64,000 bases of DNA from a bacterium (GCA_021845685.1 JAJZVN010000004.1:62001-126000), one strand, 5' to 3'; numbered from the stretch's first letter, positions 15,084 through 32,879 are shown. The notes: a model not told the origin generated them from the letters alone. Program-made: numbers and translations.

Positions 15084-15249
15084 TTAACTCAACTTCATCG
15101 TTTTTATTATTATAAAATTATAACTTATTGATATTGTGGCATTTTATTTTTTATTTTGCAGTCCTCATAGACATTTTTATTGCCCCCATAACCCCCATAA
15201 ATATAGTAATATCAATATGCTGCCGTTAATTATGGTGAAGTCGGGTTAA
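15084..15249 (-). repeat. ~160-bp dispersed repeat, copy A (leader of ricT)
   Basis: Read on the minus strand, this 166-bp segment begins TTAACCCGACTTCACCATAA and ends GATGAAGTTGAGTTAA. It is nearly identical to 32721-32879 on the plus strand apart from a 9-bp tandem duplication of GGGGGTTAT here and a few substitutions. The ends form an imperfect 16-bp inverted repeat (12 matches). The copy ends 50 bp before the ricT start and is oriented with it. Confidence 0.8.
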
Positions 15250-15350
15250 AGTAAGTTAATTTTATGTTCTTATTGTTATTCTTGCTCTTATCTCTTATAT
15301 TGTTATTAAAATAATTTTAAAATTGCTTGCTAAAACAATTATTTTGATTG

Positions 15351-16745
15351 CTATATTTCTGAAAAATACCTGTCTAACGAAATATGCTTATTTAGATTGT
15401 AATTTAGATTATTGATATGGTTTAATGTAATTTCAACCATTTCTGATAATTTTTTTTTATCTAAATTATTAAGCTGAGATATTTTTTTTATTTCTTCGTA
15501 AATATCTACATTATATATTAATTTTATATTTTTTGTAACCAAATAAACTAAAATGTCTCTCAATATAAGAAGCATGACTTCAAAAATATAGCCCTCATCT
15601 ATTATTATATTTGTATTTATATTATTATCCGAATATATATTGTTATTAATATTAATATTCAAAGAATTATTTTTAATAAAAGTTTCGGATGAATCTGATT
15701 GAATTATAGCTTGCTTTTTACTTTTACTGTTTATTTTATTATCAATTTTATTATTTTTACTGCCGTTTTCTCTATAATTTTTTAAAATATTATTAAATTT
15801 GTCAGCCATATTGTAATTATAAAAAGACAATTTTTTATTAAACGATTCGCTAATAAAAATATCAAAAATATCATTGCGAAGTTTTATATAATTACCTGAA
15901 ATAAGATTCACCAAATTTGATATACTGCCTCTTGCGAGTCTTGCATAAGCCCGCAATGTATTATCATCATATCCGCTGCTTTCATTGAAACAGCTTTCGG
16001 CATACTCAAACAGTATTTCTTCCTGTATCGGCTTAAAATTGACAAACATACATCTTGAAATTATAGTAGGCAAAATATTATTTAAATTTGCTGCTATTAA
16101 AATAAACACTGTTTTTTCGGGAGGTTCTTCTAAAATTTTTAAAATTGAATTCATTGCGCTGACATTCATTCTTGAAATATCATCGACAATGACAAATCTA
16201 TGCATATTGTTTGGGGGCAAGAGAGAAAGGGACTTGGCTAAACTATTAATTTTTTCTATATTTATCAGTCCTTTTTCATGTTCTACATAAATTATATTAG
16301 AACTTGTTTTGTTAAGTATGCCTGCACACGAAAGACACTCTCCGCAAGGATAGGATAAATTGCGATAAGCAGAATCATCAAAATTATTATTATTATTATC
16401 ATCATTATTATTTATATTTAAACAATCTTCGTCTCTACCTTCGTCTTTAATTGATAAATTGTTGAAATTATTTACATAATCTGCGTCTTTAACTAATTTA
16501 TTGCTTAATTTATTACTATTAAAATCTAAACATAATACCGAAGAGGCAAATGAAAAAGCCGTAAATTTTTTTCCTATGGATTCTTGCCCGTAAAATATTA
16601 GACCTGAAGGAATCCTGTCTTTTAAAATTAAATTGTTTAAAAAAGTTAATTCGCTTTTATGTCCTGATACCTTTGAAAATCCGTAAGGATAATTATTCAT
16701 AATGCCGTATATATTATTATATTTTGCAATAATAGGTAATTCCAT
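15351..16745 (-). CDS. holB: DNA polymerase III delta' subunit
   Basis: Clamp-loader subunit. The 464-residue protein has a P-loop region FYGQESIGKKFTAF (about 51-64), zinc-binding cysteines Cys72, Cys134, Cys137 and Cys140, ILKILEEPPEKTVFILIA and the SRC motif ISRCMFVNF, all typical of delta'. Two long low-complexity inserts are unusual: an Asn/Asp run between the first and second zinc cysteines (about 76-126) and an Asn/Lys/Ser-rich linker (about 330-385). The annotated ATG at 16745 lacks a ribosome site; Met16 (start at 16700) is nearer to where homologues begin. It lies between tmk and ricT in the common tmk-holB-ricT order. Confidence 0.88.
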   Translation of the reverse strand: MELPIIAKYNNIYGIMNNYPYGFSKVSGHKSELTFLNNLILKDRIPSGLIFYGQESIGKKFTAFSFASSVLCLDFNSNKLSNKLVKDADYVNNFNNLSIKDEGRDEDCLNINNNDDNNNNNFDDSAYRNLSYPCGECLSCAGILNKTSSNIIYVEHEKGLINIEKINSLAKSLSLLPPNNMHRFVIVDDISRMNVSAMNSILKILEEPPEKTVFILIAANLNNILPTIISRCMFVNFKPIQEEILFEYAESCFNESSGYDDNTLRAYARLARGSISNLVNLISGNYIKLRNDIFDIFISESFNKKLSFYNYNMADKFNNILKNYRENGSKNNKIDNKINSKSKKQAIIQSDSSETFIKNNSLNININNNIYSDNNINTNIIIDEGYIFEVMLLILRDILVYLVTKNIKLIYNVDIYEEIKKISQLNNLDKKKLSEMVEITLNHINNLNYNLNKHISLDRYFSEI

Positions 16746-16780
16746 TATTATACAATAAGCACATATTATATAATATAATA

Positions 16781-16812
16781 AATAAGCACATATTATATAA
16801 TATGTGCTTATT
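16781..16812. repeat. Perfect 32-bp palindrome between tmk and holB
   Basis: AATAAGCACATATTA-TA-TAATATGTGCTTATT is a perfect palindrome. A second copy of its left arm (AATAAGCACATATTATATAA) sits just beside it at 16754-16773. Placed between the end of tmk and the start of holB, it could attenuate transcription or bind a dimeric protein; it has no terminator-like U-tract. Confidence 0.6.
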
Positions 16813-16833
16813 AAAATAAATCACCAAATCGTC

Positions 16834-17532
16834 TTAAAAATTTATATTTAAAAAATAATCTAAATCGGATAAAATTTCAAGTACTATTTCGTCGGAAGTC
16901 CGGGAAGCATTTATTAATTTGATTCTATTTTGATACTTTTTGTAAAGTACTTTATAATTGTCTCTGACTTTAGAAAAGAAATCAATTGATTTAACATCAA
17001 ACAAACTCTTTTCATTTTTTTTTGATATTCTTTTGCTCGCTGCTTCGGGGTCTAAATCAAGTAAGTAGGTTCTATCTATTTTTATATCATTTATTTCAAG
17101 AATAAAATCATTTATTTTTATGATAAATTCTTTTGCTTTTTTAATTTTAGATTTATCCGCTGTTTTTTCAAAACTTTGATAAGCAAACGTAGAGTCTATA
17201 AATCTGTCGCATATAACAATATCATAATCTTTAATTTTATGTTTAATACTGCTCAAATGAGCCGTCCTATCAGATGAAAATAAAAACAGGCAAATTAATT
17301 TATAGGATATTTCATCTAAATTATTAATATATTTATACAATAAATTATTTCTTTCACCGCTATTTTTTAAAATATATTCTTTAATAAAAGCACCTAAAGG
17401 TTCATCGGTAGGCTCGGCGGTATAAAAAACTTTCAAGCCTTTCGCCTGAAGTCTATTTTTTATTTCATATCCTGCCGTAGTTTTTCCGCTTCCGTCAATT
17501 CCTTCAAGAGTGATAAATAAATTATTGCGCAT
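16834..17532 (-). CDS. tmk: Thymidylate kinase
   Basis: Phosphorylates dTMP to dTDP. The 232-residue protein starts with the P-loop FITLEGIDGSGKTTAG (about 5-20), has FYTAEPTDEPLGAFI (about 36-50), VICDRFIDSTFAYQSF (about 125-140) with the DRF/Y motif, and a LDLDPEAASKRISKKN lid region (about 178-193). Slightly longer than usual because of a charged insert around 60-75 and near 150. It is first in the tmk-holB-ricT-metG direction of transcription. Confidence 0.95.
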   Translation of the reverse strand: MRNNLFITLEGIDGSGKTTAGYEIKNRLQAKGLKVFYTAEPTDEPLGAFIKEYILKNSGERNNLLYKYINNLDEISYKLICLFLFSSDRTAHLSSIKHKIKDYDIVICDRFIDSTFAYQSFEKTADKSKIKKAKEFIIKINDFILEINDIKIDRTYLLDLDPEAASKRISKKNEKSLFDVKSIDFFSKVRDNYKVLYKKYQNRIKLINASRTSDEIVLEILSDLDYFLNINF

Positions 17533-17751
17533 TATTAGTTACCTTTATCCCGCATAAAAACAATATTCCCGCCATTTTGGTTTATTATATAACAGTTTAT
17601 TGCATGATATAAAATACGAACTAATAAGCAAAATAAACAATAACCAAAAAGTGATTTATGGATAAAAGAATATCATTAAAAATGGAAAGAAGCAATTCAA
17701 AAATTACCGCTTTTAAAAGGAACAATCAATAAACAATAAAGATTAAAGCAG

Positions 17752-17790
17752 AAATAAAAAACCCCGAAGCGGTTAGCTTCGGGGTTAAAT
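17752..17790 (-). terminator. Rho-independent terminator of the porin gene
   Basis: On the minus strand AACCCCGAAGC-TAACC-GCTTCGGGGTT forms an 11-bp GC-rich stem followed by TTTTTT. It is placed about 35 bp after the stop of the porin gene at 17824. Confidence 0.9.
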
Positions 17791-17823
17791 TATATTGACC
17801 AACTAAGTTGGGCTAATACAGAT

Positions 17824-19521
17824 TTAGAAATTCCAGATAACGGCAGAACCTAATGCTACTACATTTTTATGTGCAGCTGTACTTGGAATACCACCTGTAG
17901 AAGTAGCAGTAAAACTATCTACGCCGTTTCCAGTCCATACATACGCTCCCCATGCCTGAAATGCCAAAGTTTTTGTAAAGTGATGGGTATAGTTCAGATC
18001 AAATTCCGTTCCGATATTATGACCTGCAAACATACTGGTTGAGTGTGATTCGCCTGGAACAGTCAAATTAGTTCTGAGCCACCTGGCATAAACTACAGAT
18101 TCTTGTAAAGCGTTAGCTCCAGGAAGATGTTCAGTTGCGTCTACCATAGCAACCCATTTATTTGAAAGATTAGATCCTAATGCAAATATTCCCGTAGGTC
18201 CTGCATACATATAGCCAATACCCGGGGAAGCCATTTGAATCGGCTGCCAGTTTGAACCGATTACATCTCCAAAAAATGTTCTTGTATTTTGAATCTGAGA
18301 ATAATATGTAAAGTTGTAATGTCCTGCTGAAATTGGAGCACCGATACCAAATTTAGCGCCGACAGAAACCGGTAGTGAAGTGCTAAGATTCGTTAAACCG
18401 CTTAAATAGAGATCATAAGAATCTACGGAATCATACTGGTTATTTCCTGATGGCGTAACAGGCAGAGCTAAAGGATATCCAGCAGCAGCAGCAGTAATAC
18501 TTTGGTTAGAAGCAATTATACGCCCTCTAAAAAGGTCAAATTCACCAGCTAAAGTAGTCCCCGCATATGAGTATTTTGCCGAAAGACCACCAAAGGTAAT
18601 ATTTGCGGTAGGATTCATTGAATCAATAGTCACTGGAGTAAAAGTCGTTGAAGGTGCTCCAGTAGCAATAACCTCTGTTGGAGTAGTTCCAAATTGATTT
18701 AAATGAGCCTCTGTCAGCCAGAAACCAAGTGAAGTATGATAAATCGGCTTAAGCGTCATAAGTTCAAGTGTTGGAATCGTTCCCATTTGAATGTGCGTAT
18801 AATAAGGATCTCCTGCAGCACCGGGTATAGGTTGTCCTGAATATTGACTGCCTGGATAAATAGTTTGGAAATTTGCATAATTATTAGTATTGCCAACAGG
18901 ATTAGAAGATCCTGTAACTACTGAACCTATGAGAGTTCCTGCAAATATTCCTAAATCAGCTGACTTAAGCGGTATAAAATCGCCAATGCCATCTGCATTA
19001 GTATTAACTGCAATACCAAGACCGAACTTAACGGGCATACGTCCAAACATAATAGCACCGATCGGGGTTATCAATCTGATGTATGCCTGTCTTAATCCGA
19101 ATGTATTAAAATCATGATTAAATCCTGTAGGTGCAGGTGTTTGTCCAAGCGCATACCAGCCGTTTATTCCATAACCGTTTGAAGTGCCGTTATAGCCGTT
19201 AGTTAAATCGAATTGAACGAATAAAGCAGCAAGGGGCATACCGTTAGCCAACGTATCATATTTGATGCTTGAATTCAATCTAAGTCTTTGAGTAAGCATA
19301 TCATAGGTGTTTTGAGTTGGAAAACCAGATGCGTTATAAAAATCCTCATATTGATTCTGAGACCAAAACGCCCTTGCAATGTATTGCCCGCTCAAACTAA
19401 AGGTAACACCGTTAGCGCTCGCCTGTGAAGCGGCAAAAGACGGTGTTGAGAACATTGTTAATGCCAAAAAGCCGGCTATTGCAACTGTAAGCATTGCCAG
19501 CATTGAAAATTTTTTCTTCAT
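17824..19521 (-). CDS. Outer-membrane beta-barrel porin with signal peptide
   Basis: About 565 residues with a signal peptide (MKKKFSMLAMLTVAIAGFLA..., cleavage near PSFA-ASQ). The remainder alternates hydrophobic and polar residues with many aromatic girdle residues and ends in a C-terminal aromatic (SAVIWNF), the outer-membrane insertion signal. The first possible ATG (19533) gives MEVK, but its codons themselves form the ribosome site GGAGGTAAAG for the next ATG at 19521, so the latter is taken as the start. Slightly less AT-rich than the surroundings, as expected of a highly expressed porin. Substrate is unknown; it is monocistronic with its own terminator. Confidence 0.88.
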   Translation of the reverse strand: MKKKFSMLAMLTVAIAGFLALTMFSTPSFAASQASANGVTFSLSGQYIARAFWSQNQYEDFYNASGFPTQNTYDMLTQRLRLNSSIKYDTLANGMPLAALFVQFDLTNGYNGTSNGYGINGWYALGQTPAPTGFNHDFNTFGLRQAYIRLITPIGAIMFGRMPVKFGLGIAVNTNADGIGDFIPLKSADLGIFAGTLIGSVVTGSSNPVGNTNNYANFQTIYPGSQYSGQPIPGAAGDPYYTHIQMGTIPTLELMTLKPIYHTSLGFWLTEAHLNQFGTTPTEVIATGAPSTTFTPVTIDSMNPTANITFGGLSAKYSYAGTTLAGEFDLFRGRIIASNQSITAAAAGYPLALPVTPSGNNQYDSVDSYDLYLSGLTNLSTSLPVSVGAKFGIGAPISAGHYNFTYYSQIQNTRTFFGDVIGSNWQPIQMASPGIGYMYAGPTGIFALGSNLSNKWVAMVDATEHLPGANALQESVVYARWLRTNLTVPGESHSTSMFAGHNIGTEFDLNYTHHFTKTLAFQAWGAYVWTGNGVDSFTATSTGGIPSTAAHKNVVALGSAVIWNF

Positions 19522-19533
19522 CTTTACCTCCAT

Positions 19534-20428
19534 TATTAAATTTAATTTAAACTTTTAAAAGTTAAAAACTTGAAACACACCCCTATATGTATTATAAATT
19601 TTTTATCATATATTCAAAAGCATTGTCAAGAAAAATAATTATTTTTTTAAATTATTATCTTATTGTAAAACATTCATTTATTATAATATACGAATATTCT
19701 TAATATACCTCTTCAACAGTTTACTTATTCAAATTAAGTAGCTTAAGTATCTTCTGTATTTATTTTAAACATTGACAAATCATAATTTTCCATCTTTACT
19801 ATGTCTTTTTTGATTTAAGATCTAATATAATTTTATATATTTAATATAAAATTAACATTATAAAATAAATTAAATTTTAGCTGTTTATTACATATATAAC
19901 ATATATAAATTATAAATAGAATTATCAATTATTTATTGCAAATTAAATTTTAGGTCACAATATAATAATTAATAATGAATGCAAAGAATATGCCATTTAT
20001 AATTAATAAAGATATGAATAAATAAAAAAATAACAAAATTAGGTGATTATTGCATAGCTATGTAATAGCTACAAACGAAATCTATCTTTATATGTTATAT
20101 AAATTATTGCATAAATTATGAATTTTTATTCGCACATCTTCATGATATGGTGAATTAAAATTCACATGCTATAAGAGTTTTATGAAAGTTTTACGCTTCT
20201 ATGCGCTATTACGCTTACAAACCCATTTTGTATTTTGCAATAAAATAATGGGGAATTTCATTTTACAATAAACGTGCATGCGGTTTTGTATCAAATATTC
20301 TAAATTATGTATGACATTTTATTCTAATTTTTTTACAAAATGAATAAAATATGAAGGGACATTAAAGAAAAGAAAGAAAAGACATTAAAAAAATACAATA
20401 AAATAAGGGATTATTGAAGGTTTTTAAC
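19534..20428. other. Long AT-rich intergenic region
   Basis: Nearly 900 bp upstream of the porin gene with no credible reading frame, tRNA or clear hairpin. It must contain the porin promoter, but the composition gives many TATAAT-like sequences and none stands out. Confidence 0.5.
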
Positions 20429-20505
20429 TGGCGGGGCCGACGGGGATCGAACCCGCGACCTCCGGCGTGACAGGCCGGCGTTCTAACCGTCTGAACTACA
20501 GCCCC
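20429..20505 (-). tRNA. tRNA-Asp (GTC)
   Basis: On the minus strand the 77-nt gene folds as a full cloverleaf: acceptor GGGGCTG/CGGCCCC, D-arm with GTTCAGACGGTTAGAAC, anticodon stem CCGGC/GCCGG around CTGTCAC (anticodon GTC), T-arm GCGGG-TTCGATC-CCCGT, discriminator G and encoded CCA. The GC-rich gene stands out sharply from the flanking DNA. Confidence 0.97.
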
Positions 20506-20807
20506 GCATAAAATATAAATATAAATGACAAAAACTACCGCAGTAACTTTAGAACGGCAATAATAATTCCGATTGCAACACCTACTTGAGCTGCAAATAA
20601 TCCGGCAAACCACTTTTAACAATACTTAACTTAATTATAATGATTTATAGGATAAAGTCAAGAAATTAATTGACAATCGGTAGTCTTAATATAATATGAA
20701 CATTTTTTATCTATAATAATAAATAATTAATATAAATATAATAAAAAAAATAAAATAGCAATAAAATAATTAAATTAAATGCGGCTCTAAAAAAGGTTTA
20801 ATAAAAT

Positions 20808-20862
20808 TGGAAGGCGGAGTATGGCTCGAACCTGCGAACTCGGCTTGTAAAGCCTAATACCA
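20808..20862 (-). pseudogene. tRNA-like 3' remnant (possibly tRNA-Val)
   Basis: On the minus strand there is a short stem around TTTACAA (anticodon-like TAC), a GGTTCGAGCC T-loop-like segment and a final CCGCCTTCCA with CCA, but no D-arm or 5' acceptor strand, and the T stem does not pair. This looks like the 3' part of a decayed tRNA or a former attachment site, about 300 bp from tRNA-Asp. It is unlikely to be functional. Confidence 0.4.
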
Positions 20863-20942
20863 TAAAACTTAACTTATTGATATTGTTTAACTTTTAACAT
20901 TCATTATTAAAAATTTTATGTGACGGATTTGTGCCAAAAGGG

Positions 20943-21446
20943 CTATTTTGGGCGGTTATTTTCTTTGCCGGTAGAATGAAAAATAATATCGAATAATCTT
21001 TCGTTAGTCTTGTTCATATAATCCACTTTCTCGGAAAGGGCGTCTATCTTGGTATCCAATTTATCGTCAAGGGCGTCTATCTTACCGTCGAGACGGGCTA
21101 TATTTGTATTAATCTTTTCGTCAAGATGTGCTATATCGGATTTAAGTTCATTTTTAAGAGAGTCTATCTTGTTGTCAAGGGCGGTAATCTTATCGTCAAG
21201 ACGGGCTATATTTGTATTAATCTTTTCGTCAAGATGTGCTATATCGGATTTAAGCTCGTTTTTAATAGCGTCTATCTTAATATCCATAGCGTCTATTCTG
21301 GTATTAGTCCCGTCTATTCTTGTATTGGTAGAATTTATCTTTTCATCGAGAATATCTATTTTGCCTATAAGTTTTTGAAGGTCGGGGACTATTAATTCCT
21401 GAATGACTTTTCTTATCGCATTTTCCTTAATACTTTCCGCAGACAT
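20943..21446 (-). CDS. Coiled-coil repeat protein of unknown function
   Basis: A 167-residue, charged protein that is almost entirely heptad coiled coil. It contains an internal tandem repeat of 36 residues (KNELKSDIAHLDEKINTNIA...KIDSL, about 62-97, repeated 98-133), matching a 108-bp repeat in the DNA (21091 and 21199), plus shorter NTRID repeats near residue 40. There is no signal peptide or membrane segment. Similar proteins are common hypothetical proteins next to mobile DNA, and repeat number may vary. No function can be assigned. Confidence 0.7.
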   Translation of the reverse strand: MSAESIKENAIRKVIQELIVPDLQKLIGKIDILDEKINSTNTRIDGTNTRIDAMDIKIDAIKNELKSDIAHLDEKINTNIARLDDKITALDNKIDSLKNELKSDIAHLDEKINTNIARLDGKIDALDDKLDTKIDALSEKVDYMNKTNERLFDIIFHSTGKENNRPK

Positions 21447-21528
21447 TTTAAACTCCCGTTTACTATTAAATTAATCCTTTTCTTAAATTATACCGCTGGC
21501 CGTTAAAATAGTAAAGATTTTTTTTAGC

Positions 21529-21562
21529 GGGGGACGGCTTTCATCCGCGGTGCCGTCCCCCC
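21529..21562. terminator. GC-rich hairpin downstream of the RND operon
   Basis: GGGGGACGGC ... GCCGTCCCCC forms a 10-bp stem with a 13-base loop, 15 bp after the end of the RND permease gene. There is no U-tract on the minus strand, so it may protect the 3' end or act as a weak stop. Confidence 0.5.
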
Positions 21563-21576
21563 TTATTTACCCATTA

Positions 21577-24500
21577 TTAATCCTTATCTTTAGCTTTACT
21601 CTTATTTATATCCTTTCCTATAAACATATATACGGTCGGAACGATAAATATAGTCAAAAAAGTACCTATACCCAAACCGCTCGCTATTACTAATCCTATA
21701 TCAAATCTGCTTACCGCTCCTGCTCCTGTAGCTATTAAAAGAGGCACGACTCCAAAAACCATTGCTGCGGTAGTCATTAATATAGGTCTCAGTCTAGTTG
21801 CTGAAGCCTGTTCTATGGCACTGCGTTTATCCAATCCTTCATTTTTCTGTAAATCGTTTGCAAATCTTGTGATAAGAATACCGTGTTTACTGACAAGTCC
21901 TATCAGCGTAACAAGTCCAACCTCGGTATATATGTTAATAGTGGCAAAACCGAGACTTAAAAATATCAATGCTCCGGTTAACGACATAGGAACGCTCACA
22001 AGTATAATAAGAGGATCTAGAAAACTATCAAATAGCGCCGAAAGAACTAAGAAAATAATTATAAGAGCGAAAAAAAAAGTTATAACCATGGTAGAACCTT
22101 CTTCCACATACTGCCGGGACTGTCCTGCAAAATTATATGAAAATCCCTTAGGAAATATAGTTTTAGATATACTTTTAAGATAATTAAGCGCCTGACCTAT
22201 AGTTACGCCAGGTTTAGTCGTAGCGGATAGCGTAACGGAATTTAGCTGGTTAAACTGGTTTAAAGATTCAGGCACCACGGACGTCTTAATTTTTATAAAA
22301 CTCGAAAGCGGCACCATATTCCCGTTAGAAGCAGCTACATAATAATTTTTTAACATGCTTGCATTAAATCTGTATTTCTGTATAACCTGAGGTATAACTT
22401 TATAGCTATAACCCTGCATCTCAAACCAGTTTACATAGTTTTCGCTCAACATCGTGGAAAGAGTATCGCCTATCTCTTGCATATTTACACCCATACTTTG
22501 AGCCTTGCTCCTGTCAATGGAAACATTCAAAAGAGGTTCGTCATATTTAAGATCGCTATCCATATATAAAAATAAACCGCTCTTCATAGCTCTTTCTTCA
22601 AAGCTATCGGAAACACTTCTTAATTCGCTGTAATTTGCGGTGGAAGTTATAACAAATTCAATGGGTAAACCCTGAGAACCGGGAAGACTCGGCAAAGGAA
22701 ATGCGACTAATTTTAAACCGGTTACCGTATTTAATTTACCCTGTAGTTCAGGCGTTAACTGCATCTGCGTTTTTTTTCTCTGACTCCACGGCTTAAGCAA
22801 AAAACCGGACATAAGAGAATCATTGCTTGAAGCTCCTAGTGCCATAAAATAATGACTGAGCTCAGGAAATGTTCTATAAATGCCGCCTATCTGTTTTGCA
22901 TATAAATTAAGATTTTTAAATGTGGATGTTGGAGCGGCTGTTCCCTGAACAAATATAACCCCCTGGTCTTCGGTAGGCGCAAGTTCCGTTTTAGTTGTTA
23001 TAAATAAAAAATATGCGCTGACTAAAACAACAATTATCACGAATGCGACTACAGGTTTGTAATCTAATACGCTATGTAATATTTTGGAATAAATTAATTT
23101 GATTTTATTAAACATAACATCTAAAAAATGCGGAAAACCTTTTTTGCCCATATCGGGTTTAAGAAACTTTGACGACATCATAGGAGATAAAGTCAGGGCA
23201 ATAATACCCGATATTATCACCGTGCCTGCAAGAGTAAAAGCAAATTCGGTAAATAAAGCGCCCGTAAGACCTGACATAAAACCTATAGGCAAAAACACCG
23301 CAACAAGCGTAATGGACATTGCTATAACCGGAATACCCAGTTCTCTTGCACCGATGAGCGCCGCCTCTACAGGCTTTTTTCCTTCTTCAATATGCCTGCT
23401 GACATTTTCCACTACTACTATGGCGTCATCGACGACAAGACCTATAGCCAGAACCATTGCAAGCAGCGTTAACAGGTTTATAGAGTAATGCAAATAATAC
23501 ATAATAAAAAGGTTTCCGATAATGGACAACGGTATAGCAATTATCGGTATTATTACGCTCCTGACAGAACCTAGAAACAAGAATATAATGATAACTACTA
23601 TCAATATCGTTTCTACTACCGCTTTAATAACTTCGCTTAAAGAACTTCTTATAAAAGTCGTCCTGTCGAATGCCACTCTAAGTCTGAGATGCGCGGGCAA
23701 TTGCGCTCTCAGAGACGGCAGGATTTTCCTTATATTATTTACAACCGTCAGAGGATTGGCGGTAGGAGTAATAAATATACCCATAACAACGGCTTTTTCT
23801 CCGTTCATAATATTTCCGGCGTCATAACTTTGAGAACCAAGTTCTACTGTACCGATATTCTTGATTCTAACTAAAGTACCGTTGTCGTTTGCTACAACTA
23901 AATTTTTAAATTGCTTAACATTGTGCAGATACGTGCCTGCAGAAACATTGACCTGCAGGTACTCGCTTTTTGTATATCCGTTTGCGGCAATATAGTTATT
24001 ATTCGCAAGAGCCTGCGAAACCTGTACCGGCGTAACATTAAATTCTGCCATTTTTTCAGGGTTAAGCCAAATTCGCATTGCAAATGACTTATTGCCGTAT
24101 ATCATTACCTGCCCGACGCCGTTTATTGACTGTATTTTTGGCTGCACCGCCCTGCTTATATAATCGGTTATTTGAGAACCGCTCATTGACTTAGATGTAA
24201 AAGCCAAGTAAAGATATGCCAAATTAGTTACGCTTGTTTTAGTAATAAGCGGAAGCTGTGATTGTTTAGGCAATTGATTTAGAACTGCATTTGTCTCTGA
24301 AAGAACCTCGGCAAGAGCGGCATTAGAATTATAATTAAGCTTCATAAAAACGCTTATAGTGCTCATACCCTCTTTACTAGACGATTCCATATAATCTATG
24401 CCGTCAGCGGAAGCGATTGCCCTTTCAAGCGGCATTGTTATAAAACCCTGAACAACATTTGCATCGGCGCCAGGATATGCTGTTTGCACGGTGACTAAGG

Positions 24501-24654: not shown

Positions 24655-24674
24655 TTATGAATTCCCCTTACCGT

Positions 24675-25778
24675 TTATTTTACTGTTAATGCTTTTTTAT
24701 TGTTGTTTTCTATTACAACCTCAACACCGTTTCTCAGTTTAACCTGTCCTGCGGTAACAACCGTCTCGCCTGCTTTTAAGCCTTTTAATACAACTACTCT
24801 GCCGTTTCTAGAATCTCCAGCCGTTATATATTGCGTATTCGCCACATATTCGTTATTCTTTTTTGTAACGACATAAACAAAATCTCCGTAAGGATTATAT
24901 GTTATCGCAGTTGCAGGTACTGTAATTACATTGTGTATTACGGGCAATAAAACGCTGCCCGTCACAAACATTCCAGGTCTTAAAATAATATCTTTATTGT
25001 TCACCGCCGCCCTGACGGTTATATTGCGGGAAACGTTGTTTACATCTATGCTTATTGTTTTTATTATTCCCGTGAATATTTTACCTATATGCGAATCTAC
25101 GCTTATATCTATTTTTTGATTAATTTTTAGCCTGCTTAAATCATTCTGAGGCATAGTAAAATCTACATATATAGGATTAACAGAATACAGAGAAATAATA
25201 TCGGCACCCGTATTTATGTATTGGCCTAAGTTTACCGAGGTCTGTCCTCTTATCCCCACTATCCCGGTAAAGGGCGCTCTTATAGTCATATTTTGTATAG
25301 TTACTTCGGTTTGCTTAATCATAGCTTCATTCTGTTTAAATGTGGATAGCATCTGAATATAAGACGCTTTAGATACGGCATTTTTTTGATATGCCTTTTT
25401 ATATTGTTCGTAGTTAAATTTGTTTACTATTAATTGTGATTTATATTGCTGCAGCTGGGCAAGCTGAAAGGAATCGTCCAATTTAACTAAAATTTTATTT
25501 TTTTTAACAAACTCGCCTGAACTGAAATATATGCCTGCAACTTGTCCTGCAACCTGTGTAGTTACGTTTACGGAATTTACAGATACTACATTGCCTATTG
25601 TCCTTATATACGGCTGCCAGTCGCCGATCTTAGACAAGGCAACCGACACATACACTGGAGGATATTTCCGCTTCATTGCAGCCATATGCATTTCATATCC
25701 CTTATAAGCCTTATATCCAAACAACCCGCCAAATATAACCAATAAGACGACAAATGTCAGTAAAAAACGTTTTAACAT
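24675..25778 (-). CDS. Periplasmic adaptor (membrane fusion protein) of the RND pump
   Basis: A 367-residue HlyD/MexE-type protein with an N-terminal membrane anchor (about 5-22), lipoyl-domain halves around VAGIYFSSGEFVKKNKILVKLD (split near 85-105) and ITIRAPFTGIVGIRGQTSVNLGQYI, a short alpha-hairpin between them, and a beta-barrel/membrane-proximal region ending in GLKAGETVVTAGQVKLRNGVEV. It links the permease to the outer-membrane channel. AGAAGG lies before the ATG; the promoter is in the region shared with the divergent channel gene. Confidence 0.94.
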   Translation of the reverse strand: MLKRFLLTFVVLLVIFGGLFGYKAYKGYEMHMAAMKRKYPPVYVSVALSKIGDWQPYIRTIGNVVSVNSVNVTTQVAGQVAGIYFSSGEFVKKNKILVKLDDSFQLAQLQQYKSQLIVNKFNYEQYKKAYQKNAVSKASYIQMLSTFKQNEAMIKQTEVTIQNMTIRAPFTGIVGIRGQTSVNLGQYINTGADIISLYSVNPIYVDFTMPQNDLSRLKINQKIDISVDSHIGKIFTGIIKTISIDVNNVSRNITVRAAVNNKDIILRPGMFVTGSVLLPVIHNVITVPATAITYNPYGDFVYVVTKKNNEYVANTQYITAGDSRNGRVVVLKGLKAGETVVTAGQVKLRNGVEVVIENNNKKALTVK

Positions 25779-25825
25779 AAAATTGCCTTCTGCTTAATAA
25801 TTAATTTTATAAAATAAAAAAGTAA

Positions 25826-25886
25826 TTGACAATATGACTTTATAGTCAGTATAATTAGAATATATTAAATTTAATTGACAGTCAAT
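25826..25886. promoter_or_regulatory. Shared efflux promoter region with two palindromes
   Basis: On the plus strand TTGACA (25826-25831) and TATAAT (25850-25855) are 18 bp apart. The spacer holds the inverted repeat TGACTTTATAGTCA (25835-25848), and a second perfect palindrome ATTGACAGTCAAT is at 25874-25886, just after the expected start of transcription. Both share the half site TGAC/GTCA. This is the layout of a repressor operator, for example of a TetR-type regulator, serving the divergent efflux genes; no regulator gene is nearby. Confidence 0.7.
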
Positions 25887-25901
25887 AAATTTTATTATAA
25901 A

Positions 25902-27341
25902 ATGAAAAAGAAAATTATAGTTTTAATTTACATGAATTTAGCATTTTTTCTCAGCGGGTGCGCCTTATATACCGCACCAAAAGAAGTTGCGGTAAAAATA
26001 CCGAATAAATTTAAATATTCGGTTAAAACTCAGAGATATTTCATAAAAAATGACTGGTGGAAAAACTTTAAAGATAAAGAACTGAATATTTTGGTCGGCA
26101 AAGCTCTTAAAGATAATTTAAATTATCTTATTGCAGTAAAAAATATTCAAGTTGCAAGAACTTATGTATCTCAAAACGAATCTAACTTATTTCCTATTAT
26201 TAATTTTAGCTACAACGGTTCAAGAAATAAACTACCTGCTTATGGAACTGGCACTGTTCAGAAAGGGGCGTCTTCATCTTCAACTTCTATTTACAATTTA
26301 AATCAAGCCGGCTTTAGCGCATCTTATGAACTTGATGTTTGGCATCAAATTAGTAACACGATAAATCAGGCAAAATCTAACGTTGCTGTTTCTAAAGAAG
26401 ACGCAGATGTTATAAAATTAACGCTTATCAGCAATGTAGCGCAATCATATTTTCAAATAATTGCGCTTAATGCGGAAACTAAAAATTTAAGAAAACAATA
26501 CCTCGCCGAAAAAGAAATTTTGAAACTTAATTTAGTCCAATATAAAGACGGACTTGTTAGCGCAGAACCCGTGGAAAATGCAAAAATTTCACTTGAGGCT
26601 TTAAAAACCTATTTAAATAACTCTATAAAACTAAAAGATATTACGCAAAATACGCTCGCGTATTATCTTGGAAAATTCCCAGAAAAATTTAAAATAGAAA
26701 CAAAAAAAAACCATCTTTATAATAATTTTCAAGATATAAATTATATCAATTTAATACCGCCGAACATCCCTTCGGACATATTAACCCAAAGACCCGATGT
26801 TAAAGAAGCCGGATACAATGTTTTATCATATGCTTATGCTAAAAAAATAAGCCTTGCCAATTTTTTCCCTACATTCAGCCTAACAGGCGAATATGGCTAT
26901 GCAAGTCCGAGCCTCGGTAATTTTATAACCGATGCAAACAGCGTATGGAATTTCGGTTTAAATATATTAGCTCCTATTTTTAATTACAAAGAGAACATAA
27001 GCATTTATAAAAGATCACAGCTTCAATACAAACAGGCTGTTCTTAATTATAGAAACACCATAATAAATGCGTTCAGCGAAACGGACAGCGCTCTTGCTTC
27101 TTATAAAAGAGATTTTAAAACTTTAAACAGTTATAAAAGCAATGTGATTTACTCCTCAAAACTATTTCATATTTACAGTGTGCAGTATATGGCAGGCATT
27201 ACAAACAGGATAACATATTTAACTTATAAATTAAACCTGCTCAATGCTAAATATAATCTTATAAATCAAAACCTGCTTTTGCAAGAAGATGTTATAAATA
27301 TATATAACACGCTCGGCATGGGGCTTAAGCAAAATGCTTAA
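25902..27341 (+). CDS. Outer-membrane factor lipoprotein (NodT/OprM type) of the RND pump
   Basis: The channel of the tripartite pump. It has a lipoprotein signal peptide with lipobox LSGC (lipidated Cys near residue 20 from the chosen start), followed by two OEP repeats rich in long helices, including WWKNFKDKELNILVGKAL, ASYELDVWHQISNTINQAK, the family motif IPSDILTQRPDVKEAGYNVL and LAPIFN. A TTG at 25875 would add nine residues (MTVNKFYYK), but that codon lies inside the ATTGACAGTCAAT palindrome, so the ATG at 25902 that opens a typical MKKK signal is preferred. Confidence 0.92.
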   Translation: MKKKIIVLIYMNLAFFLSGCALYTAPKEVAVKIPNKFKYSVKTQRYFIKNDWWKNFKDKELNILVGKALKDNLNYLIAVKNIQVARTYVSQNESNLFPIINFSYNGSRNKLPAYGTGTVQKGASSSSTSIYNLNQAGFSASYELDVWHQISNTINQAKSNVAVSKEDADVIKLTLISNVAQSYFQIIALNAETKNLRKQYLAEKEILKLNLVQYKDGLVSAEPVENAKISLEALKTYLNNSIKLKDITQNTLAYYLGKFPEKFKIETKKNHLYNNFQDINYINLIPPNIPSDILTQRPDVKEAGYNVLSYAYAKKISLANFFPTFSLTGEYGYASPSLGNFITDANSVWNFGLNILAPIFNYKENISIYKRSQLQYKQAVLNYRNTIINAFSETDSALASYKRDFKTLNSYKSNVIYSSKLFHIYSVQYMAGITNRITYLTYKLNLLNAKYNLINQNLLLQEDVINIYNTLGMGLKQNA

Positions 27342-27430
27342 TATTATTTATTAAACGACGTAAAATTGCCGATTAAAATGTACATCATGATTAAAGTTCC
27401 TAATCCTGCGATAGAAAATTTATTTTATAT

Positions 27431-27575
27431 ATTTATTCCTGCTTTCGCAGAAATGACTTTGCCTGTATTTAGTTTCTAATCCAATAGGCATCATTCCCGC
27501 GCATGCTGGAATCCAGTGTTTGTCTAACATTAGAAAGTTTTGGATAGTTTCTAATGCAGGATTGAAGAAAACGTT
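27431..27575. repeat. BIME/REP-like dispersed repeat, copy 3
   Basis: Contains a left unit ATTCCTGCTTTCGCAGAAATGAC and a right unit CATTCCCGCGCATGCTGGAATCCAG in inverted arrangement, followed by a tail GTGTTTGTCTAACATTAG...GCAGGATTGAAGAA that matches the tail of copy 1 at 9103-9185. It lies after the outer-membrane factor gene. Confidence 0.65.
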
Positions 27576-27584
27576 CATTGTTGT

Positions 27585-27704
27585 CAACTTTTAATTTGTC
27601 TATTGAATTTAACTTTTAATTTGTCATAATATCCCGTTTATTATTATTTTTAGTTAAGGAATAGACAAATTAAAAGTTATTTTGTTATAGACATTTTAAA
27701 AGTT
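27585..27704. mobile_element. MITE-like element with doubled terminal repeats (IS21-like ends)
   Basis: The left side has two direct copies of AACTTTTAATTTGTC (27586-27600 and 27611-27625); the right side has the reverse complements at 27664-27678 and 27690-27704. Repeat spacing (25-26 bp) is the same on both sides, so the whole is an inverted pair of double repeats with about 40 bp in between. IS21-family elements typically have multiple repeats at their ends, so this may be a deletion derivative of one; no transposase remains. Confidence 0.6.
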
Positions 27705-27881
27705 ATTAACAGAAAAAGACGTTCATTTGACATTTATTATAATTTAAGATAGTATATAAAAAATTAATCTAATAAGCACAATATTACTGAATACAAATAA
27801 TAAGTATAAATTAATATAATTAATATAGGTATAATTTAAAAATAATATTAATAATGTAAATATAAAGGGAGGTAATCAATT

Positions 27882-28262
27882 ATGAATCCAACGGTTCTAA
27901 GATTGAAAAATATTATTGCAATTTCTTGTTTAATAATATTTTCGGCTGTAGCTCTTAATCTGTTTATACAATCCAATGCGTTTGCTATGAAAACTAATGT
28001 AAATAATGCTGCTTTTCAATACAAAAAAGGCATAGGTGCAATGCATGGCGGATATAATATGACAGCAATCCAGCATTTTCAAAAAGCTATAATTTTAAAA
28101 CCTCATTTTGCAAAAGCATGGGGTAAAATGGGAATCGCGCTTCATAGGCTCGGTTTTCCTTCATTAAGCATTGTTTCGCTAAAAAAAGCTTTGCAATATA
28201 ATCCGAAACTCATCTGGGCAAAAAAATTTCTTAAAAAATACGAAATGGAACCTGGCCGCTAA
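27882..28262 (+). CDS. Small exported TPR protein
   Basis: A 126-residue protein with an N-terminal hydrophobic segment (about 11-33, probably a signal peptide ending near AFA) and then one to two tetratricopeptide repeats: MTAIQHFQKAIILKPHFAKAWGKMGIALHRLG and SIVSLKKALQYNPKLIWAKKFL. GGGAGGT lies at good spacing before the ATG. It stands alone between repeat-rich gaps. TPRs bind proteins; the partner is unknown. Confidence 0.75.
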   Translation: MNPTVLRLKNIIAISCLIIFSAVALNLFIQSNAFAMKTNVNNAAFQYKKGIGAMHGGYNMTAIQHFQKAIILKPHFAKAWGKMGIALHRLGFPSLSIVSLKKALQYNPKLIWAKKFLKKYEMEPGR

Positions 28263-28457
28263 TTGCCGTTAATTTTTTTATTTATACAAATAATGCCTTA
28301 ATTACTTATTTTTTTGTATCAAATTTATAACTTTGCGATCACGTTCTTGCTTGTTTACTATTATTGTAAGGTGAGAGGACGGGGATTGCAAAGTTATTCT
28401 CGTCCAATAGCTATTATATATTATATAAGATACAGGCGTCGAAAGCCGCTTATTAAT

Positions 28458-28541
28458 CTACAAGATAAAACCTACAAGATAAAACCTACAAGATAAAATC
28501 TACAAGATAAAATCTACAAGATAAAATCTACAAGATAAATA
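28458..28541. repeat. 14-bp tandem repeat, six copies
   Basis: Six head-to-tail copies of CTACAAGATAAAA(C/T), with a last unit ending AATA. It sits in the gap between the TPR gene and the convergent membrane protein gene. There are no spacers, so it is not a CRISPR. Confidence 0.9.
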
Positions 28542-28548
28542 AGATAAA

Positions 28549-29820
28549 TCAAGAACTTTTTTCCATAATAAATAAATTTATCAAAAATATTACGGAAGCG
28601 GCTATTAATAATGCCGATGATATTTTTATGAGATTTATGTCTAAAATAAGTAAAGAAAATGATGCAGCGGGAACAGCCGCTGCAAATAATATTAAATCTA
28701 TATATTGCATATATTTTTTTTGCATATTTCCTATTAATCCTTTATAAGCGCCTTTTTTTACTTTTTCAAATTTTCTTAAACTTATTAAAAACGGAAATAT
28801 TTTATGCAAAAAACCGATTATGACCATTCCTGCATAACCAAATAAACCGATAAATCCGAAAGCATAATAAATACCCGGATTTTCAGCTATTGCTCTTTCG
28901 GGCAAAAATAATATTAAATTCCCCATAAAAACTGCAGCCAATAAAAAAATAATACCCAAATACAGATAAAAAATTGTAATATCCCATTTTTTCTTAATCC
29001 TGCCGTTCATTAAATTAAAAAATTCAAAACAAAATACAATTATTCCGGCAGATAATAAAATGCTGCCTGCATAAAACAAACCTAATCCGAATAAATTATA
29101 AAACCCGTCTATAATTGAAGAAATTACAAGTAAAATAATTCCTGCATTTAATAGTATGAAATCCGCTAACCATATAAAATTTTTAGGCGTTTTTGTCATA
29201 TAAAACATTGGAAGTAAACGATAAGATATTGCAATAAACAGCATAATGACAAAACCTGCGAACATCAAATAAATATGGCTCATCAAAGAATCAAAAATAT
29301 ATTTTCCTCCTATATTAAAATAAAATGAGAGTGCCATATATGTGCCTATTGAAAGTCCGATAAAAAGATAAATATAGGCAAACAAGATTCCAAAACTTGT
29401 GTAGTCCCATTTTCTTATCTTTTTCAGGCTTATCATCATATTTATATTGTAAATAATAACCGAGGCAAATAATAAACAGCCGCCTAATGCAATGAAGACA
29501 GGGCTAAAATAATGCATTCCCGCAATAAAAACTATAAGCGCAATAATATAAACATAATAAACATAGTAAAATGTTTTTTCAAAAGCTATTTTAACCCCGA
29601 GAGCAACAGGCAATAGCATATAAGATGCTCCCATAATTACCATTAAAAGAAAACCTAAAGTAAAAATATGTGTTAAGGATATTATTTTCGTGTTCATAAA
29701 AAAATAAGTCAAAAAATTATTTGAATCAATAAACATATAATAAAAAAACAATATTAAAAAAATAGACCCCGTTTTAATATGTCTTAAAGCTATATTTACG
29801 GAACTATCGCCGGAATTCAT
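28549..29820 (-). CDS. Polytopic membrane protein resembling haem-copper oxidase subunit I/NnrS-like proteins
   Basis: About 423 residues with roughly twelve membrane helices. Histidines occur at helix starts in contexts reminiscent of haem ligands: LTHIFTLGFLLMVIMGASYMLLP, SHIYLMFAGFVIMLFIAISYRLLP and GFLHKIFPFL. The repeated H-x(n)-Y-LLP pattern recalls subunit I-like proteins of unknown function found with respiratory genes, not a true oxidase. The longer start at 29847 adds MICCRRRKT, but GGAG of that stretch is a good ribosome site for the ATG at 29820, which is chosen. It is followed upstream by a MIP18-family gene on the same strand, 19 bp from the longer start. Confidence 0.6.
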   Translation of the reverse strand: MNSGDSSVNIALRHIKTGSIFLILFFYYMFIDSNNFLTYFFMNTKIISLTHIFTLGFLLMVIMGASYMLLPVALGVKIAFEKTFYYVYYVYIIALIVFIAGMHYFSPVFIALGGCLLFASVIIYNINMMISLKKIRKWDYTSFGILFAYIYLFIGLSIGTYMALSFYFNIGGKYIFDSLMSHIYLMFAGFVIMLFIAISYRLLPMFYMTKTPKNFIWLADFILLNAGIILLVISSIIDGFYNLFGLGLFYAGSILLSAGIIVFCFEFFNLMNGRIKKKWDITIFYLYLGIIFLLAAVFMGNLILFLPERAIAENPGIYYAFGFIGLFGYAGMVIIGFLHKIFPFLISLRKFEKVKKGAYKGLIGNMQKKYMQYIDLILFAAAVPAASFSLLILDINLIKISSALLIAASVIFLINLFIMEKSS

Positions 29821-29866
29821 AGTTTTTCTCCTTCTGCAACATATCATATAATGTAATTTTTAATTT

Positions 29867-30172
29867 TTAATGCTTATGCAATTTCTCTAAAATTTCAGGT
29901 TTTATCATAGAATAATTCCATTCGGGTTCCCAAACTATATTCACCTCTGCGTTTTCTATTCCTTCAAGTTTTTTTAGCGATTCTTCAACTTCAAATTTTA
30001 TTACATTGCTTAGCGGACAGCCTTTTGAGGTTAAAGTCATAAAAACAGCCGCTTTTTTATTTTGTTCATCAATTTTTATATCGTAAATCAATCCTAAATC
30101 AACTATATTTACTTCAAGCTCCGGGTCTATTATCTGTTTTAAATTTTCTAAAATATCGTTTTTTGTTATCAT
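29867..30172 (-). CDS. MIP18/SufT-family (DUF59) Fe-S assembly-type protein
   Basis: A 101-residue protein with the full DUF59 pattern: IIDPELEVNIVDLGLIYDIKID (about 13-34) and MTLTSKGCPLSNVIKFEVEESL (about 45-66), containing the conserved cysteine of the T-x-K-G-C-P motif. Members help metal-sulfur cluster assembly or transfer. Typical members end with a WxP segment, seen here as VNIVWEPEWNYSMI. It is just upstream of the haem-copper-like membrane protein and probably co-transcribed with it. Confidence 0.88.
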   Translation of the reverse strand: MITKNDILENLKQIIDPELEVNIVDLGLIYDIKIDEQNKKAAVFMTLTSKGCPLSNVIKFEVEESLKKLEGIENAEVNIVWEPEWNYSMIKPEILEKLHKH

Positions 30173-30227
30173 AATGTATTACCGCCCATTAATTAATTTT
30201 TTTCATTTTATTTTATTCAAATATTAT

Positions 30228-30278
30228 TATTATATTCTATTATTATATTCTATTATTATATTCTATTATTATATTTTT
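30228..30278. repeat. 13-bp tandem repeat
   Basis: About 3.9 copies of TATTATATTCTAT in the divergent promoter region between the MIP18-family gene and the DUF5752 gene. Confidence 0.85.
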
Positions 30279-30342
30279 ATATTATCACAATAAAATTAAA
30301 AAAAATTTGATTATTATCACAATTTGTATTAAAATAAAAAAC

Positions 30343-30999
30343 ATGAATAATAAAACTGCGCAATATCCTTTTAAGTTCTTTGTTAAATTAAGCCTCCCTG
30401 AATTAACAGGGATATATGCTTTAAATCTTGCAGAACTCCTTAAAGGTATTAAGATATCTGACGATGCCATATTATACTATCATACGCATCATTTTTTGCT
30501 TCAATTTCATAGTACTGCGCCTGCAGCTCCTAATGATTTTGCTTATTGGATTACAAGCATACTTGGAGAAAACTTTCTAGGTGAAGAAATAGCGGGCATT
30601 GATTTATTCAGTTTTAATTCAATGGAAAAATTTAAATTAAAACTTATTGCAATTATTGAAAATTTTATTTCCAAAAATAAAAAGACAAGGCAGGTTGAAA
30701 TGTCTTCAAGATTTAATTTTATGAAGTCAATAACATATATTATGGATACTAAAAAATATGCCTACTCTCTTGAAGATTTCGTAAATATTTTACAAAATAT
30801 GTCTGTTTATTCTCTTTATTATCATTTTTTTGAATCTTCTTTCAGATTAAAAGAAAGAAAAAATGATTTTTCAATGTGGATAGATAGCGAATTTAAATTA
30901 ACTAAACTTGCTTCTGACATAAACAATCTTGACTTATATACCCATACTATGAATGAATTAAAAGTTGTAATAATAAATTTAGTTAAACAATATTTATAA
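30343..30999 (+). CDS. DUF5752-family protein linked to trehalose synthase
   Basis: About 218 residues matching the DUF5752 pattern as I remember it: PFKFFVKLSLPELTGIYALNLAELLKGI near the start, YYHTHHFLLQFHSTAPAAPNDFAYWITSILGE, and later FMKS, YSLYYHFFESSFRLK, NDFSMWI and LDLYTHTM. The function is not known, but the family is commonly encoded directly before a GT4 glycosyltransferase of the TreT type, as here (34 bp). The TTG at 30307 would add twelve residues of low-complexity sequence; the ATG at 30343 is preferred. Confidence 0.75.
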   Translation: MNNKTAQYPFKFFVKLSLPELTGIYALNLAELLKGIKISDDAILYYHTHHFLLQFHSTAPAAPNDFAYWITSILGENFLGEEIAGIDLFSFNSMEKFKLKLIAIIENFISKNKKTRQVEMSSRFNFMKSITYIMDTKKYAYSLEDFVNILQNMSVYSLYYHFFESSFRLKERKNDFSMWIDSEFKLTKLASDINNLDLYTHTMNELKVVIINLVKQYL

Positions 31000-31033
31000 T
31001 TAATTATCAATATATTTTTACCAAATTCTTAAA

Positions 31034-32266
31034 ATGAATCCAATAAATAATTATGCGGAAATTGTCGGCAGCGAAATAATTGACGAGCTTAAAGAAATAG
31101 CGTCGCATTTAGAAGGAAAGATTGTACAAAATATTAATTCAACAGCGGTGGGTGGCGGCGTCGCTGAAATATTAAACAGAATGATACCTCTGCTTAAACA
31201 GCTAAATGTTGATGCAAGATGGGATTTTATTAAGGGAGGAGAAAAATTTTTTGAAATTACAAAAAAAATTCATAACTCTCTTCACGGAATAAACATTGAT
31301 ATAACAAAAGAAGAATTTGACCATTTTGATCAAATTACAAAAGATAACTTAGCTAATATGACTCTAAACGGGGATATAATATTTATACATGATCCTCAGC
31401 CTATCGGACTTATAAGAGCAAAAAAACAGGCAGAGTTTAAAGAAAAAAAATTTATATGGAGATGCCATATAGACATCAGTTCGGCTAATCCTAATACTTT
31501 TAATTTTTTAAAAAAATATATAGAACTTTATGATGCTTCTGTATTTTCTTCTCCTTTATTTTCAAAAAAACTTAAAATCCCCCAGATGTTAATTGCTCCC
31601 TCAATAGACCCTTTATCCGATAAAAATAAAGAACTTGATAAAAAACAAATAATCGAAGTCGCAGACAGATTTAATATTGATTTAAATAAAAAAATAATAA
31701 CTCAGGTATCAAGATTTGACAGATTAAAAGACCCTCTCGGAGTAATTGATGTTTATAGATTAGTTAAAAAATATATAGACTGCCAGCTTATTTTGGCGGG
31801 CGGATCCGCCGACGACGATCCCGAAAGCGTTGAAGTATATAAAGAAGTTCTTGAAAAAGCTAACGGAGATAAAGATATTTTTATTTTAAACCTCCCGCCT
31901 ACCAGCAATATTGAAATCAACGCAATTCAAAGAATGTCTACGGTAATATTGCAAAAATCAATAAAAGAAGGTTTCGGGCTTACCGTTTCTGAAAGTTTAT
32001 GGAAGAAAAAACCGACCATCGCCTCGGCAGTAGGCGGTATCCCACTACAAATAACACATAAATATTCAGGATTGCTTTCAAGAACCATTGAAGGAACCGC
32101 GCTTTATACAAAACAGCTTCTTCAAAACTCTGAATATGCAAATAAGTTAGGTCTCAATGGACACGAACATGTTAAAAATAATTTTCTTATAACGAGACAT
32201 ATAAGAGATTATTTATTATTATTTATAAAAGTGCAGCATAATAAAGAAAACATAATTTATTTATAA
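31034..32266 (+). CDS. treT: Trehalose glycosyltransferring synthase (TreT-like GT4)
   Basis: TreT makes trehalose from NDP-glucose and glucose. The 410-residue GT-B protein shows the TreT-type N-terminus INSTAVGGGVAEILNRMIPLLKQLNVDARWDFIKGG (in parts, 36-70), FIHDPQPIGLI, RCHIDIS, a QVSRFDRLKDPLGVIDVYR donor-domain block, LAGGSADDDPES and the C-terminal EX7E-like KEGFGLTVSESLWKKKPTIAS. Its partner gene DUF5752 lies immediately upstream. Trehalose is a compatible solute, fitting the potassium and MscS genes elsewhere in the window. A trehalose phosphorylase of the same family cannot be excluded. Confidence 0.85.
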   Translation: MNPINNYAEIVGSEIIDELKEIASHLEGKIVQNINSTAVGGGVAEILNRMIPLLKQLNVDARWDFIKGGEKFFEITKKIHNSLHGINIDITKEEFDHFDQITKDNLANMTLNGDIIFIHDPQPIGLIRAKKQAEFKEKKFIWRCHIDISSANPNTFNFLKKYIELYDASVFSSPLFSKKLKIPQMLIAPSIDPLSDKNKELDKKQIIEVADRFNIDLNKKIITQVSRFDRLKDPLGVIDVYRLVKKYIDCQLILAGGSADDDPESVEVYKEVLEKANGDKDIFILNLPPTSNIEINAIQRMSTVILQKSIKEGFGLTVSESLWKKKPTIASAVGGIPLQITHKYSGLLSRTIEGTALYTKQLLQNSEYANKLGLNGHEHVKNNFLITRHIRDYLLLFIKVQHNKENIIYL

Positions 32267-32363
32267 AAATTTATTTGATTGCAAAACTTAATTTGCAAAT
32301 TAAATTAATATTTGATATTATAAATAAATTATTTTTAATCATAGTTTAATCATTTTGGATTTT

Positions 32364-32459
32364 GGAGAGATGGCCGAGCTGGTCGAAGGCGTTCGCCTGC
32401 TAAGCGAATGTATGTTTATAAAGAACGTACCGAGGGTTCGAATCCCTCTCTCTCCGCCA
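32364..32459 (+). tRNA. tRNA-Ser (GCT)
   Basis: A 96-nt class II tRNA: acceptor GGAGAGA/TCTCTCC, anticodon stem-loop TCGCCTGCTAAGCGA with GCT, a long variable arm (TGTATGTTTATAAAGAACGTACC region), T-arm GAGGG-TTCGAAT-CCCTC, discriminator G and encoded CCA. Confidence 0.97.
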
Positions 32460-32720
32460 TTACAAAATAATTTAAATTTTTTATTCTTGTATATTTATAA
32501 CATAATTTATTTAATAATATATTTATAACATATCAATAATAAATATATAAAAATTTTAAATTAAACCAATAAAATTAAACAATTATCATATATTTGCTTC
32601 AAATTAAACAAAACAACAATCCAAATAACAATCTTTCTTTCATTGCCTAATTAAAAAAATACGGTAGAATTTTAAATATTAAGTTTAATTAAAATAATTA
32701 AAAAATAAAATAGAATATTC

Positions 32721-32879
32721 TTAACCTGACTTCACCATAATTAACAGCAGCATATTGATATTACTATATTTATGGGGGCAATAAAAATGTCTATGGAGAC
32801 TACAAAATAAAAAAATAAAATGCTAACAATATCAATAAGTTATAATTTTATAATAATAAAAACGATGAAGTTGAGTTAA
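32721..32879 (+). repeat. ~160-bp dispersed repeat, copy B
   Basis: Near-identical to copy A at 15084-15249 (opposite strand). It begins TTAACCTGACTTCACCATAA and ends GATGAAGTTGAGTTAA, with nested inner inverted segments around TATTGATATT. Copy B lies about 205 bp upstream of the acidic-protein gene and in its orientation. Confidence 0.8.

Follow-up and report, generated by a model that had tools for sequence, protein, structure and literature searches.

A TTAA-flanked MITE family of Candidatus Acidulodesulfobacterales and its probable origin from an IS1634-type insertion sequence

MITEs derived from insertion sequences (IS) of the IS1634 family have been described in Methanosarcina, where an ISMba11-type element of 247 bp is present in 23 copies and an ISMac10-type element of 249 bp in 15 copies (PMC3852290). 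The IS1634 family has the terminal consensus C-----YT and target duplications of 5-6 bp, while IS1549 and IS1634 have long variable repeats (PMC2266710). Bacterial MITEs that resemble the one presented here in size and have IS relatives form a familiar group (PMC2229807). Transposons are not mentioned in the main text of the paper describing the host order (PMC6776010), and among the papers returned by our literature search none joins IS1634 with TTAA.

Here we analysed a window, the whole stretch of 64,000 nucleotides of a bacterial genome (GCA_021845685.1, JAJZVN010000004.1:62001-126000), in which two near-identical elements had been noticed. The preliminary description left it between a regulatory RNA and a promoter-bearing MITE. 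We find that the element is a MITE, mobile DNA of a common type, which very probably was derived from an IS1634-type IS by internal deletion and transposed in trans into TTAA.

The window copies and their family

Both elements are present exactly where they had been reported. Copy 1 occupies 15084..15249 on the minus strand (166 bp including both TTAA). Its consensus orientation (TTAACCCGACTTCACC...) runs on the minus strand and points to its downstream neighbour ricT (14288..15034, minus strand; RicT/YaaT family with a PSP1 domain, NF041131 and PF04468), the start codon of which is 49 bp away. The two TTAA of the target-site duplication lie at 15084..15087 and 15246..15249. Inside them are the terminal inverted repeats (TIRs), namely CTCAACTTCATC at 15088..15099 on the plus strand, the counterpart of the left terminus of the parent IS described below, and GGTGAAGTCGGG at 15234..15245, which reads CCCGACTTCACC on the minus strand and corresponds to the right terminus.

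Copy 2 occupies 32721..32879 on the plus strand (159 bp including both TTAA), with the target-site duplication at 32721..32724 and 32876..32879. Its TIR CCTGACTTCACC at 32725..32736 on the plus strand is of the right-end type of the parent IS, and GATGAAGTTGAG at 32864..32875, read as CTCAACTTCATC on the minus strand, is of the left-end type. Downstream, at a distance of 205 bp to the start codon, lies an ORF for an acidic protein of 88 aa (33085..33351, plus strand), for which we found no Pfam match. Each copy is therefore upstream of a gene and co-oriented with it, as had been observed.

Within the window the copies are reverse complements of each other on opposite strands and give a near-gapless alignment. 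This alignment bears out the reported differences, a 9-bp tandem duplication of CCCCCATAA (15183..15200) in copy 1 that is absent from copy 2 and a few substitutions, to which 1-bp indels are added. The imperfect inverted ends (TTAACYCRACTTCAYC / GRTGAAGTYGRGTTAA) and the nested inner pairing, formed by the 10-bp pair TATTGATATT / AATATCAATA, were likewise seen.

The two copies are members of a family that numbers about 55 in the host genome (3.04 Mb in 199 contigs). A DNA search of this genome gave at least 40 copies at E<1e-41, and a profile HMM built from 41 full copies gave 52 places, fragments included. Since so many copies stand in the same genome, a chance resemblance of the two window stretches is excluded. 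A search of the host genome with the terminus added a few further isolated ends, which are MITE fragments or chance matches. The bodies measure 149-158 bp and have terminal inverted repeats with CYCRACTTCAYC ends. No copy contains a long ORF or a transposase ORF, and inspection of the truncated copies C85, C18, C29 and C43 showed no transposase either.

Two sister species (Candidatus Acididesulfobacter) have about 26 and 32-37 copies, and other genera of the host family have essentially none. The copies of the host genome show a median identity of 96.8% to their own consensus. At least eight insertions are common to sister species, so the family has been active across more than one speciation. 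With about 55 copies, many of them species-specific, it offers useful markers.

Target duplication and the parent insertion sequence

Nearly all alignments of the termini read TTAA-CYCRACTTCAYC ... GRTGAAGTYGRG-TTAA. The sister species Ca. Acididesulfobacter diazotrophicus AP1 (G002) has empty sites for both window copies. At the site of copy 1, where it is 94-95% identical, G002 reads AAGTTACT-TTAA-AGTGAATTAATTTT with one TTAA, and the occupied site in the host genome reads AAGTTAAT-TTAA-element-TTAA-AGTAAGTTAATTTT. At the site of copy 2, next to a gene that is 97% identical, G002 reads AATAGAATATTC-TTAA-TTTTTTTAAATAA, again with one TTAA. The target duplications and empty sites, which had been named as favouring a MITE, are thus found at both window copies.

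TTAA flanks both sides in 53 of the 87 copies for which both ends are available. Among the rest of the 87, identical non-TTAA tetramers on both sides (TTAG, CTAA, ATAA, TTAT, TTGA and TCAA) were observed 10 times where 1.1 were expected; a count of 10 never arose in 100,000 shuffles. Since the left and right flanks agree even when they differ from TTAA, the target duplication is exactly 4 bp, with a strong preference for TTAA. Outside the tetramer, a C precedes TTAA in 17 and a G follows it in 18 of the 53 copies, an enrichment over the background of 8%.

Other lengths of the duplication were considered as well. More than 4 bp is impossible on inspection, as abTTAA cannot equal TTAAcd, and a 2-bp TA duplication is ruled out by the joint variation of the outer T and A on both sides.

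Roughly every eighth copy has inserted such that a neighbouring gene stops on the TAA of the target TTAA, giving a neighbour distance of -4 and an unchanged protein (e.g. L011, L025, L022, L084 and L141). At other copies the neighbour distance is -20 (e.g. L019, L116, L127, L137 and L152). There the frame of the upstream gene extends some 20 bases into the element, as far as an internal TAA, so that the MITE supplies C-terminal codons and the stop.

The parent IS came to light in G002, in which MITE-like termini at several contig ends lead into non-MITE sequence. These termini mark both ends of a longer repeat that codes for an IS1634-like transposase, and G002 has many fragments of it at contig ends. 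A complete parent IS is present in G015 (JAKASB010000083.1, bacterium isolate YP1.bin11). It is 2,036 bp long (2044 bp with the TTAAs), flanked by the 4-bp TTAA, and carries TTAACCCAACTTCACCRCT at both ends; its ends TTAACCCAACTTCACC match the MITE termini exactly. The encoded transposase of 588 aa covers positions 2-482 of the 483 of NF033559 (IS1634) with 254.9 bits (cut-off 100) and matches PF01609 with 60.9 bits. Its terminus CCCAACTTCACC fits the family consensus with C1, T7 and T8.

The interior of the MITE corresponds to the IS ends as well. With the TIR removed and relative to shuffles, the 5' half of the MITE matches the right end of the IS (P 0.0025 in G002, 0.026 in G015) and the 3' half matches the left end (P 0.0045 and 0.0095, respectively). 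The crossed comparisons of the halves with the opposite IS ends, also with the TIR removed, were not significant (P 0.08-0.6). The first pairing aligns as TTGATATT.CTATAT...CTATGGGGACTACA and the second as GTAGTCCCCCATAGA. Because each half matches one IS end only, we take the MITE to be, most likely, an internal-deletion derivative of this IS. Two TATGGGG motifs stand in its centre, and they may be the trace of the deletion junction, one from each IS end.

These comparisons suggest the following course. An IS1634-family IS would have lost its interior, leaving a MITE of about 149 bp that retained some 75-85 bp from each IS end. An IS1634-type DDE transposase, probably acting in trans, would bind the CYCRACTTCAYC ends and insert the MITE at TTAA, which would be duplicated as 4 bp. 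Copies would then build up between genes and at stop codons, where insertion would be harmless, and the intergenic location probably reflects the purge of harmful insertions by selection.

Three points stand against this model: no complete IS of this type was found in the host genome, the duplication is 4 bp and not the reported 5-6 bp, and the copies show an orientation ratio of 43:20 (see below). Regarding the first, searches with the N-terminus of the transposase and with the TIR ends found no complete parent IS in the 199 contigs of the host genome. Hence the enzyme that moved the host copies may now be absent, may have been missed in this assembly or may have been supplied from elsewhere. 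Regarding the second, the transposase and the termini of the parent IS agree with the definition of IS1634 and its 4-bp TTAA duplication departs from it; on the strength of the former two we read this TTAA-using group as a variant within the IS1634 family, which widens the described range of the family. The strict 4-bp TTAA is the only unusual trait of the group.

We also considered whether a transposase of the IS1380 family or one resembling that of piggyBac could have mobilised the MITE. The TTAA duplication and the TTAACCC ends recall piggyBac, and the host genome has IS1380-family transposases (PF13701). However, the IS1380 elements here bear other TIRs, such as CCTTAACTCACCGTTAGAAACTT, with termini unlike those of the MITE, while the exact MITE termini are found on the IS1634 element. 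Searches with PF13843 (piggyBac) gave zero matches in 25 genomes, and likewise zero in 14 control genomes. We regard such a mover as highly improbable, and IS1380 was rejected as the parent, its transposases being present with the wrong ends. The IS1380-family ISs lie on contigs C161, C21 and C192 of G000 (L179, L183 and L185), have TIRs such as the one given above, and two of them contain an in-frame TGA.

Two further observations were made near IS1634-type sequences. About 500 bp past the end of an IS1634-type element in G003 (C1:599500-602500, L204), positions 1950-2962 hold 14 copies of a repeat of about 36 bp, GTCTCAATCCCCTCATTCGGGTCATTTATTCCTAT, with a spacing of 70-78 bp, an arrangement that resembles a CRISPR array. 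At a contig end of G002 (C7:3-1067, minus strand, L196) an ORF joins the first ~257 residues of an IS1634-type transposase to a DUF1844 protein. This frame is probably a chimeric contig and possibly a real gene fusion.

Folding, promoters and orientation

The position of the window copies, each ahead of a gene and in its direction, could be explained by a cis-regulatory leader RNA that spread upstream of genes and was kept for its function. Both strands do have a small folding advantage over shuffles (z -1.9 and -2.2), and the orientation bias between co-directional genes described below would agree with such a function. However, any element with TIRs would have such an advantage; the hairpin potential stems from the TIRs that the transposase needs. 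Compensatory mutations in the paired stems, proposed as a check, did not exceed the level of shuffles. When the hairpin was counted explicitly, neither paired cells nor covariation stood above shuffles: the covariation score was 0.099 compared to 0.102, and pairs changed on both sides numbered 3 compared to 3.5. RNAalifold, applied to 40 diverged copies from the three species, gave a consensus of -2.8 kcal/mol that left out the terminal stem. There was no Rfam match, and the RNA family search returned three tRNAs only.

The genomic context speaks against a leader as well. G002 retains ricT and the gene of the acidic protein without the element, and these empty sites largely refute the leader-RNA reading, to which we assign a very low probability. 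Annotation of the element as a leader RNA is unwarranted. Promoter-like matches near copy 2 were at shuffle level (8, compared to 5.0 with sd 2.3). Of the two possibilities raised at the outset, the MITE is upheld by the empty sites, while the regulatory RNA, and likewise a promoter on the MITE, found no support.

To describe orientation we pooled the three species and denoted as '++' a copy between co-directional genes in the orientation first reported. After deduplication, 90 copies had a known neighbour on either side. They comprise 43 '++', 20 '--', 19 between convergent and 8 between divergent genes, with genes called as ORFs of at least 60 aa, so that single contexts may be wrong. A leader would hardly be expected in the 19 convergent and the 20 backward-facing places. 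A gene start lies downstream in the '+' sense in only 51 of the 90; therefore the element is not a 5'-leader feature, and its orientation has no tie to gene starts.

A plain MITE is expected in a 1:1 ratio of orientations. Between co-directional genes, on the other hand, the copies of the three species depart from it (43:20, P=0.005), also when both neighbours have at least 100 aa (37:14, P=0.0018). Orientation between co-directional genes is non-random. The favoured orientation has the A-rich strand as sense strand.

The MITE could have been co-opted, or tolerated in one orientation, through an effect on transcription as a promoter, a terminator or a determinant of mRNA stability. Besides the two ratios and the strand preference, a precedent exists in ERIC, the effect of which on mRNA depends on orientation (PMC2229807). 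Against this, the bias is significant alone only in the host genome (22:9, compared to 11:7 and 12:7 in the others), and the promoter-like matches do not exceed chance. In G003 genes are strongly co-oriented with replication, as judged from sampled GC skew and gene strand, and the copies of G003 alone show little orientation bias. Since genes follow replication so closely, the direction of the gene and that of replication are inseparable there, and the 43:20 bias is moderate. We therefore consider co-option unlikely. Somewhat less likely still is that the bias is functional, the MITE influencing in one orientation the transcription or mRNA of its co-directional neighbours, with a TTAA-specific IS1634 MITE family turned into a dispersed regulatory element of these acidophiles whose copies are kept or purged by orientation. 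The bias poses a modest, testable question.

Comparison with known mobile elements

A MITE derived from an IS1634-type IS accounts for a conspicuous repeat of an uncultivated acid-mine-drainage lineage and links it to its parent. The Methanosarcina MITEs are among its closest known counterparts, being small, non-autonomous, IS1634-derived, present in tens of copies and equipped with TIRs of about 15-20 bp. In contrast to them, the present family resides in Candidatus Acidulodesulfobacterales, is about 149 bp long and has a strict 4-bp TTAA; the values tabulated for Methanosarcina, apparently in the direct-repeat column, are 6 and 0 (PMC3852290).

With the IS1634 ISs the MITE shares the termini (with C as the first base and YT at 7-8) and an interior that matches the IS ends with the right polarity, and the parent IS of YP1.bin11 and AP1 has the same TTAA flanks as the MITE. 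Unlike those ISs, the MITE has no transposase gene, and the group found here duplicates 4 bp.

RUP, Correia/NEMIS and ERIC resemble the element in size (~100-170 bp), AT-richness, intergenic location, imperfect palindromes and high copy number, and RUP, too, shares its termini with an IS (PMC2229807). They are, however, typically TA-terminated, and RUP is linked with IS630 and with TA, whereas here we find TTAA and an IS1634-type parent. Effects on transcription have been reported for ERIC and Correia/NEMIS.

The TTAA target duplication and the CCC terminus are shared with piggyBac, but this is a eukaryotic superfamily and the transposase here is of the IS1634 type (NF033559, PF01609). As far as tested, the resemblance looks like convergence. 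IS1634-derived MITEs are already known; what is new is their occurrence in this host and a target duplication of strictly 4 bp, TTAA.
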